From Deltaproteobacteria bacterium (GTDB lineage: Bacteria; Myxococcota_A; UBA796; GCA-2862545): a DNA stretch of 64,000 nucleotides. A program made the translations under genes and the position numbers. The notes under the pieces are model-generated. The model worked only from the letters and a program-made list of their open reading frames with translations, was not told the origin of the DNA and searched no databases. Shown here one piece after another: positions 31,434-34,328 of the stretch (the stretch's first letter is position 1; the number at the start of each line of letters is the position of its first letter). Location: assembly GCA_006226595.1 (NCBI GenBank), contig SBGP01000035.1, forward strand, positions 1-64,000, read 5' to 3'.

Positions 31434-31589
31434 ATCGGGCTGCTCTGGGCGGTCCCGGGTGTCGCCTGGCGTTGTCACGTATGGACGTGCGTCCCGAGAC
31501 GGAAGGGGAGCGACTATCGATGAACAGCGGGTCCAACGGTGTTTCGCGTCCTGGTACGTGACTTGCGAACCCGGCGGGTGGAGGTCTCC

Positions 31590-32276
31590 ATGCCATTCAC
31601 TCGCCGCTGTTTTGCCCTTCTCGCTGTTCTCGCTGGCTGTGAGCAGCCGGTTCTCTCCGAGGAGCTCGAGGACACCGCCTTCGTTCCCTTCGAGGAGATC
31701 GAGGACACCCCCATCGACGACACCGCCCCGCCGCCCGCTGCGGAGTACGGCATCAACCTGCTCGAGAATCCCGGACTCGAGACAGGCGATCTCACCGGGT
31801 GGGACGTCACCCAGCGCGGAGGAGACGGCCTCCAGGTGATGCAGGCGCAGCTCGCCCACACCGGTGGCTTCTATCTCCGCACCTCCTACCAGTTTTCCTC
31901 GCGGAGCCAGCGCGTGGATCTGCTGGAGGCAGGGTACACGGTCGAAGAGCTCGATGCCGAACCCCTGGTCCACGCCGCTGAGTGGTTCGCCGAGCGCTGT
32001 GAGACCGGGGACCGGTACTGGTTCCGCGTGACCCTGCTCGACGCAGAAGGCAGCGTGATCGACCAGCAGACGCTGGGCGGGCGGACCACCGCCTCGACGT
32101 CTCTTTGTAGCTACGCCGACGACGAGTGGTTCGAGCTGACGATGTCGTTCTCGGACTACGGACCGGGACTCCGGGCGGTTCTCTTCGAGGACGGAGGCCA
32201 GGACTCCGAGTGGTGGGCCGGGTACTTCGGCATCCAGATGGATGACGCCTGGCTGTCCCTGTCGCCGCCGCAGTAG
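31590..32276 (+). CDS. Lipoprotein with F-box-associated (FBA)-like domain
   Basis: This 228-residue lipoprotein has lipobox LAGC (C17), an acidic linker (18-52), then one domain (56-225) that follows the FBA fold of FBXO2/NCCRP1 step by step: NLLENPGLE..DLTGW with RGGDG, the VDLLEAGYTVEELDAEP stretch, EWFAERC, ELTMSFSDYGPGLR and FEDGGQDSEWWAGYFG. Trp209 falls where FBXO2 has its glycan-contacting Trp; the neighbouring Tyr and Lys are Trp208 and Ala210. It may bind glycans or proteins at the cell surface. Start at 31590 after GGAGG. Confidence 0.8.
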   Translation: MPFTRRCFALLAVLAGCEQPVLSEELEDTAFVPFEEIEDTPIDDTAPPPAAEYGINLLENPGLETGDLTGWDVTQRGGDGLQVMQAQLAHTGGFYLRTSYQFSSRSQRVDLLEAGYTVEELDAEPLVHAAEWFAERCETGDRYWFRVTLLDAEGSVIDQQTLGGRTTASTSLCSYADDEWFELTMSFSDYGPGLRAVLFEDGGQDSEWWAGYFGIQMDDAWLSLSPPQ

Positions 32277-32447: not shown

Positions 32448-34328
32448 GTGCCCCGCATCGGCCAGCTTGCCCCACTCGCCCTCCTCTTCGCCTGCCAGGA
32501 CTACGGCCTCGGCGTCACCGCCGACGACCTAGGTGTTCCGCTCGAGTGCGACCTCGGCACCATCTACCCCGAAGACGCGCCCATCGTGGAGACCTGCCCT
32601 CAACACGAAGGCAGCTTCGACCCAGTGGTCGAGTTCGGTCTCGGTCAAGGCCAGAGCGCGCGCTCTGTTCCAGCGGTTGGTGACATCAATGGAGATGGTC
32701 TGCCGGACATCGTGAGCAACTTCTCGAGCGGCATCCTGCCCGGTAACAAAGGCAAGCTCGTCGCCTTCTCGGGCGACGGCACCGAGCTGTGGATCAACAG
32801 CTCGGCCGATCTCGGCTACGCCTGTTCGCCCTCGATCGGCGACGTGGACGGCGATGGGCGCCCGGAGATCTTCGCGGTTCGTGCGCTCGGAGGTCAAACG
32901 CCGCTTCTGGACCTGGGAGAGTTCGCGGTCGTGCGCTTCGACCACACCGGTGCCGAGGTCTGGGAGAGCGATCCGTTCCCACCCGAGAACTTCGACTACG
33001 CCACGGGCATCGCGTTGTCGGACATGGACCACGACGGAGAGGTCGAGGTGGTCGCTGGACGCGTGATCCTGCGGGCCTCGGACGGGAGCCTGCGCGGTCA
33101 GGGCCAGTTCGGCCGCGGATCGTGGGGCGAGCTCCCCAACCCGTTCGGAGCTCCCGTGTCCGAGGGCACGCTGCCCGCCGTCGCCGACCTCGATCTCGAT
33201 GGCATCGAGGAGGTGATCGCGGGCAACACGATGTACACCCCCGACGGCGAAGTGAAGTGGCACGACGCCGCACAGGCCGACGGCATGGTGGCCGTGGCCA
33301 ACCTCGACGACGACCCCGAGGGTGAGTTCGTCGTGTCGAGCTACGACAAGATTCGCGCGGTCGACACCGACGGCTCGATTCTCTGGGGACCCGTCGGGCT
33401 GCCGAATGCCAACATCGTGTCGCCGGCAGCCGTGGCCGACGTCGATGGCGACGGATCCCCCGAGATCTTCGCTGCCGGCGGCAACGCGCTCGTCGCCTTC
33501 CGCGCGGATGGCACCGAGCTGTGGAGCGCTCAGGCTATCGACGAGTCGGGGGCCACTGGACCGAGTGTGTTCGACTTCGAGTCGGACGGGCTGCTCGACG
33601 TGGTCTACATCGACGAGCAAAACATGACCGTGTTCGATGGCATGACGGGTGCCATCAAGTTCTTCAACGAGGAACACAACTCCGACACGATGATGGACTA
33701 TCCGACCATCGCAGATGTCGATGCCGACGGGCAGGCCGAGATCATCGTGGCCCACGCGAACTTTACGCGCGCCCTCTCGGTCTACGGCGACGCCAACGCG
33801 TCCTGGGGCCCCGCGCGCCGCATCTGGAACCAGCATGCCTACTCGATCAGCAACGTCGACGATGACCTCTCCATCCCGATGCATGCCGAGCAGGGCTTCA
33901 CGACCCACAACACCTGGCACTCGGCGATCGATACGCGCAACCTGAGGGGCACCCTCAACGAGCTCGGCGTCGAGATTCTCGATGTTTGCGAGGTCGATTG
34001 CCCCGACGACGAGTTCTACGTCATCGGCCGGGTGCTCAATGAGGGCACCGAGACCATTCCTGCGGGGCTGCCCGTTTCGCTGTACGGCATTCGCGGCGGC
34101 GGCGTTCCGGTGCTCATCGGCACCATCGAGACGCGCTCCGACACGCCTGCGGGAAGCACTGGCGAGCCCTTCGCCTTCACCTTCGCGGCGAGCGAGGCCA
34201 CAAGCAGCAGTGCGTTGCGCTTGGTGGTCGACGATGACGGCAGCGGACTCGGCGTGCACTTCGAGTGCGACGAGACCGACAACGCCGACGAGGTCCAAGG
34301 GCCGTTCTGTGAGGGGATTAGCCGGTAG
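32448..34328 (+). CDS. FG-GAP/VCBS repeat lipoprotein
   Basis: This 626-residue surface lipoprotein has lipobox LLFAC (C16). At least eight FG-GAP/VCBS calcium-binding motifs occur (GDINGDGLPD, GDVDGDGRPE, SDMDHDGEVE, ADLDLDGIEE, ADVDGDGSPE, ADVDADGQAE and two weaker ones), predicting a seven- or eight-bladed propeller over residues 65-480. The C-terminal 125 residues form a beta-sandwich of the CARDB type (VIGRVLNEGTETIPAGLPV). Likely adhesion or scaffold. GTG start; 171 bases after the FBA gene with no visible terminator. Confidence 0.85.
   Translation: MPRIGQLAPLALLFACQDYGLGVTADDLGVPLECDLGTIYPEDAPIVETCPQHEGSFDPVVEFGLGQGQSARSVPAVGDINGDGLPDIVSNFSSGILPGNKGKLVAFSGDGTELWINSSADLGYACSPSIGDVDGDGRPEIFAVRALGGQTPLLDLGEFAVVRFDHTGAEVWESDPFPPENFDYATGIALSDMDHDGEVEVVAGRVILRASDGSLRGQGQFGRGSWGELPNPFGAPVSEGTLPAVADLDLDGIEEVIAGNTMYTPDGEVKWHDAAQADGMVAVANLDDDPEGEFVVSSYDKIRAVDTDGSILWGPVGLPNANIVSPAAVADVDGDGSPEIFAAGGNALVAFRADGTELWSAQAIDESGATGPSVFDFESDGLLDVVYIDEQNMTVFDGMTGAIKFFNEEHNSDTMMDYPTIADVDADGQAEIIVAHANFTRALSVYGDANASWGPARRIWNQHAYSISNVDDDLSIPMHAEQGFTTHNTWHSAIDTRNLRGTLNELGVEILDVCEVDCPDDEFYVIGRVLNEGTETIPAGLPVSLYGIRGGGVPVLIGTIETRSDTPAGSTGEPFAFTFAASEATSSSALRLVVDDDGSGLGVHFECDETDNADEVQGPFCEGISR

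Follow-up and report, generated by a model that had tools for sequence, protein, structure and literature searches.

How does a sugar-binding domain of vertebrate ubiquitin ligases come to sit on a bacterial lipoprotein, and what might it do there? Fbs proteins, which carry this FBA domain, have been described as vertebrate-only (PMC6389600). Within the 64,000-nucleotide stretch of DNA that was analysed (the window), from a deltaproteobacterial, myxobacterium-like genome, an initial annotation nevertheless claimed an FBA-like domain on a bacterial lipoprotein, here a protein of 228 residues. The open reading frame has coding-like codon use, and both parts of that claim stood. The protein starts with a lipoprotein signal, MPFTRRCFALLAVLAGC, which has the lipobox LLAVLAGC. 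Signal peptide, lipobox and cysteine are all present; lipidation itself is a prediction. Behind an acidic linker, a single domain reaches to the C-terminus (Table 1). Apart from this sugar-binding domain, which is that of the vertebrate quality-control proteins FBXO2 and FBXO6, the small surface-type lipoprotein has no folded part.

Table 1. Features of the FBA gene and its downstream neighbour, in positions of the window.
Feature	Position	Strand	Basis
Shine-Dalgarno-like GGAGG, ATG 5 nt further on	31580..31584	+	read directly
Whole gene, 228-residue lipoprotein with FBA domain	31590..32276	+	ORF call, codon use, Pfam
Lipoprotein signal peptide, MPFTRRCFALLAVLAG followed by C; lipobox LAGC	31590..31640	+	sequence; lipobox regex match, common to homologues
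Cys17, predicted to be lipidated	31638..31640	+	lipobox position
Acidic linker rich in Pro/Asp/Glu/Thr, residues 18-52	31641..31745	+	sequence; homologues have stalks here
FBA domain, PF04300 positions 6-171 of 175, beta-sandwich	31746..32249	+	Pfam, AlphaFold2, Foldseek
Tyr100, equivalent to Phe177 of mouse FBXO2 (Tyr in FBXO6)	31887..31889	+	alignment; contact named in PMC4603797
Trp208-Trp209, equivalent to Tyr279-Trp280 of mouse FBXO2	32211..32216	+	alignment; Trp209 invariant in all bacterial FBA
FG-GAP repeat protein, lipoprotein-like start (LLFAC), 171 bp downstream of the FBA gene	32448..34328	+	

The identity of the domain can be established in several ways. The Pfam family FBA (PF04300) has a cut-off of 32.4 bits and matches at 89.8 bits, with an E-value of 2.4e-25. 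It is the only Pfam family above its cut-off; only the signal peptide and linker precede it, and no F-box was found, in line with the initial annotation. The carbohydrate-binding module (CBM) families CBM61, CBM16, CBM22 and CBM_4_9 are not among the Pfam matches listed for the protein up to an E-value of 10, NCBIfam gives no match, and no catalytic domain is present. In a phmmer search against the PDB, FBXO6 (9.2e-23), FBXO2 (8.2e-22) and FBXO44 (1.2e-18) were found, and all eight significant matches are Fbs or FBG proteins; with a profile of 23 bacterial rows, FBXO2 is matched at 7e-43. Conversely, a profile built only from FBXO2 and FBXO6 gives the real domain 99.9 bits, compared with 8.5 for the best of 2000 shuffles. 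The motif series proposed earlier (NLLENP, GW, GGDG, VDLLEAGYTVEELD, EWF, DYGPG, FEDGGQDSEWWAGYFG) is complete and in the proposed order.

Structure prediction points the same way. The AlphaFold2 model made with the 23 bacterial rows has a pLDDT of 92.8 and a pTM of 0.89, and a model from five rows (pLDDT 73.7) retrieves the same ten PDB folds first. In Foldseek, these ten places are taken by Fbs1, Fbs2 and FBG3, with E-values from 4e-17 to 3e-14 and TM scores of 0.80-0.84. After a gap follow CBM61, CBM16 and CBM22 at about 1e-7, the best of them at 9e-8. FBA domains and CBMs do have the same broad fold, so a mere resemblance to distant galactose-binding-like or CBM folds, with no true FBA domain, has to be considered. 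With the Pfam match lying 57 bits over the cut-off, no CBM family near its threshold, and the Foldseek distance between Fbs1 and the best CBM, such a resemblance is exceedingly improbable, and a simple CBM or galactose-binding identity was ruled out by the Pfam, phmmer and Foldseek results together. Neither a different fold nor significant matches limited to unrelated galactose-binding domains, the outcomes named beforehand as contrary to the FBA claim, appeared.

What the protein has in common with CBM61, CBM16, CBM22 and CBM_4_9 is the beta-sandwich, secretion and an N-terminal NLLxNPGxExG..GW motif; one structure, 2xom, shows a weak N-terminal similarity (7e-4 with the 23-row profile). The CBMs match much more weakly, however (TM about 0.6), and lack the C-terminal signature GGxDxExWxGxYG. 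Among viral proteins in BFVD, the best fold matches are five with neighbouring accessions (A0A346G414, A0A346G422, A0A346G412, A0A346G4A3 and A0A346G3Y3), at about 1e-11; they are closer in fold than any CBM.

FBXO2/Fbs1 and FBXO6/Fbs2, which are adaptors of SCF ubiquitin ligases, share with the bacterial protein the whole FBA domain at 35-36% identity and the same predicted fold. Unlike them, the bacterial protein has neither a Skp1 linker nor the N-terminal Skp1-binding F-box of the Fbs proteins, and it is an exported lipoprotein rather than a cytosolic protein. NCCRP1 has likewise been described as carrying an FBA domain and giving no F-box match (PMC3210139), but it is intracellular and of animal origin.

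In mouse Fbs1, contact with GlcNAc-GlcNAc is made by three essential residues, Phe177, Tyr279 and Trp280 (PMC4603797). Their equivalents in the alignment are Tyr100, Trp208 and Trp209, so that all three positions are aromatic, as in FBXO2 and FBXO6, and Trp209 occupies the glycan-contacting position proposed for it. Of the 25 bacterial FBA and FBA-like domains, every one has Trp where FBXO2 has Trp280, and 22 have an aromatic residue (F, Y or W) where it has Phe177, the others having His or Asn. Position 279 is not consistently aromatic in the bacterial relatives, where G, S, T, N and V also occur. At positions 177, 279, 280 and 281, the N-glycan binder FBXO6 has Tyr/Phe/Trp/Ala, compared with Tyr/Trp/Trp/Ala here. 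Variants of human Fbs1 that bind complex N-glycans more tightly have F173Y, which corresponds to position 177, among their substitutions (PMC5457524). Other parts of the pocket differ from FBXO2: Lys281 is replaced by Ala (also found in FBXO6), Asp216 by Glu, and the beta2-beta3 loop, which holds Asp158 and Asn159 in FBXO2, is shorter in this protein and in other bacterial FBA domains.

The conserved aromatic contacts make sugar binding by the bacterial domain likely, with one caution: in FBXO44 the set Tyr/Tyr/Trp is retained, yet differences in the loops prevent sugar binding (PMC4603797). It is this caution that keeps the surface lectin of the initial annotation at the level of inference. 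FBXO44 also serves as precedent for a different function, in which the beta-sandwich would have lost sugar binding while keeping its fold and pocket residues, and would act as a protein-binding or structural part of a stalked envelope scaffold. Of the polar residues in the pocket, Lys281 and Asp158/Asn159 are indeed not conserved in the 228-residue protein. Such a scaffold is nonetheless unlikely, given that the Trp is invariant over very divergent bacterial domains, the FBA-like group included, that the nearest bacterial folds are CBMs, and that a C-type lectin domain co-occurs with FBA in one relative.

The protein is, with good probability, a secreted and lipid-anchored carbohydrate-binding protein (a lectin) that presents an FBA module. 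The basis for this reading is the domain identity, the predicted fold, the aromatic positions, the lipobox, and the recurrence of the domain on stalked lipoproteins; from these we infer that it binds glycans, is exposed at the surface and takes part in attachment or in the capture of substrate. Mechanistically, the simplest proposal is a lectin that its lipid holds on the outer membrane, where it would attach to or capture glycans. The signal peptide would lead to export and Cys17 would be lipidated, after which the short acidic stalk would hold the single FBA beta-sandwich outside the membrane. An apical aromatic platform of Tyr100, Trp208 and Trp209 would then stack on the sugar rings of an external glycan or one of the cell's own, just as the three Fbs1 residues do on GlcNAc-GlcNAc. 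Because there is no F-box and no enzyme domain, the protein would act by adhesion or capture, not by ubiquitination.

The genes on either side give no further hint. A fumarase lies upstream and the FG-GAP lipoprotein downstream, followed by a cytochrome c on the opposite strand, and no glycan pathway or evident operon partner is found among these neighbours. No common system was seen around FBA genes, and the gene neighbourhood differs from family to family. In two related genomes, a large membrane sulfatase-like gene, recognized by reading the sequence only, adjoins or lies near the FBA gene (locus L010, 3584-6367; locus L011, 3873-6716).

Relatives of the protein show a recurring design. Many bacterial FBA proteins are lipoproteins whose stalks are either acidic or built of EGF repeats; at the position of the linker stand EGF repeats or tracts of (DT)n, (DA)n or (DS)n. 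A strict pattern of lipobox plus hydrophobic stretch, which also gave two false matches inside Cys-rich repeats, recognizes a convincing signal in 10 of the 18 open reading frames examined. Some of the remaining frames end at the edge of their locus, and in some a lipobox can be seen on inspection, for example LLIATGC (L003) or LTGC (L056). Most homologues with a readable N-terminus have a lipobox. The most elaborate architecture is an 852-residue frame (L066, G450:C265) in which bacterial Ig-like repeats and a C-type lectin domain (2e-17) accompany two tandem FBA domains.

Sampling of bacterial FBA domains was confined to the genomes of one phylum, where their occurrence is patchy. In an even draw of the phylum, 5 of 379 genomes have a match above the Pfam cut-off; the domain occurs in 2 of 71 genomes of the window's class and in 11 of 318 of another class. 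Altogether, 13 genomes yielded 20 FBA domains, two of which lie in one 16-Mb genome assembled as a single contig. The source genome (7.2 Mb, 117 contigs) has a single one. Eukaryotic contamination was ruled out by this recurrence, by the single-contig genome and by the bacterial flanks. At the sensitivity used (tblastn and pattern search), no close relatives of the 228-residue protein were found in plasmids, phages or viral contigs. For another of the FBA domains, plasmids gave no relatives and phages one weak match, an FBA-like stretch (8e-3) in a large hypothetical protein of Actinomycetia phage DSL-LC01 (OQ999401.1; L068, 2836-5670). No papers on bacterial FBA domains were found in the literature searched, whose coverage leaves out most subscription journals, and database entries for bacterial members of PF04300 may well already exist. 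The roughly 20 natural domains are candidate glycan-capture reagents, like those engineered from Fbs1 (PMC5457524).

The related bacterial proteins also bear on the origin of the vertebrate domain. A bacterial profile of strict FBA and FBA-like domains has matches in 36 of the 379 genomes, mostly to more distant CBM-like modules. In profile-profile comparison, strict FBA matches FBA-like domains at 6e-24, FBA-like domains match generic modules at 4e-19, and strict FBA matches generic modules at 1.5e-16. A profile of generic modules only finds FBXO2 as its best PDB match (1.3e-5), then phage tailspikes, with CBM61 lower. Judged by these profiles, the bacterial domains grade from generic CBM-like modules, by way of FBA-like ones, into true FBA. 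Animal protein quality control could have drawn its N-glycan-reading domain from such a series, a proposal concrete enough to be tested. The series suggests that the animal domain descended from bacterial carbohydrate-binding modules. Same-phylum genomes hold a widespread family of secreted modules (L026-L046), whose profile has FBXO2 as its best PDB match and whose tested members have no Pfam match or one below threshold; it seems to be the wider family out of which FBA arose.

Maximum likelihood trees were rooted on FBA-like or generic bacterial modules, with FBXO2 and FBXO6 as the only vertebrate rows. Both fall inside the bacterial FBA rows. In the larger trees rooted on FBA-like domains, the vertebrates group with 15 or 14 bacterial rows at 98/95 and 97/96 support, leaving the EGF-stalked members outside. 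With generic modules as outgroup, the position of the vertebrates inside bacterial FBA is not resolved. The first tree, of five bacterial rows, gave one EGF-stalked member a basal place that was not upheld, and with 20 rows the basal part is less resolved.

Should the transfer have gone from animals to bacteria, the bacterial copies would be derived; this direction is improbable, though compatible with lectin function. It would fit the patchy occurrence (5 of 379 and 11 of 318 genomes), and an AU test does not reject bacterial monophyly, with p of 0.13 for the five-row tree and 0.075 and 0.053 for the 20-row trees. On the other hand, bacterial FBA domains are nearly as diverse among themselves (36-49% identity) as they are distant from vertebrates (35-39%), and bootstrap trees that unite the bacterial rows without the vertebrates number zero in the larger trees and 2% in the five-row tree. 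In addition, the EGF-stalked members and the FBA-like outgroup share a C-terminal extension domain (43-60% identity), and that outgroup grades into generic bacterial modules.

The favoured, though unproven, reading is therefore that the vertebrate domain originated in bacteria and was transferred into the animal line; the AU values are 0.05-0.13, and the trees cover two vertebrate sequences and one bacterial phylum. Of the earlier suggestion of an ancestor or a transfer, the lean toward bacterial ancestry stood and statistical proof did not follow. The full scenario is that the FBA domain of SCF ligases arose in bacteria as a secreted CBM, was transferred horizontally to animals and joined to an F-box, and is still used by bacteria extracellularly as a glycan-binding lectin. 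It is a serious possibility, at slightly less than an even chance.

The extension domain occurs behind FBA in an EGF-stalked member and after FBA-like domains in two genomes of another family. This C-terminal beta domain (VRxSNDxxxWxxWxxF...TKTVxVxF; L013 and L048-L052) is therefore found in two distant families, and the strand that precedes FBA there indicates that FBA may have been inserted into an Ig-like host domain. At one further locus (L014, G157:C627, about 307-474), the C-terminal domain lies in a different frame from the FBA-like domain, a probable assembly frameshift.
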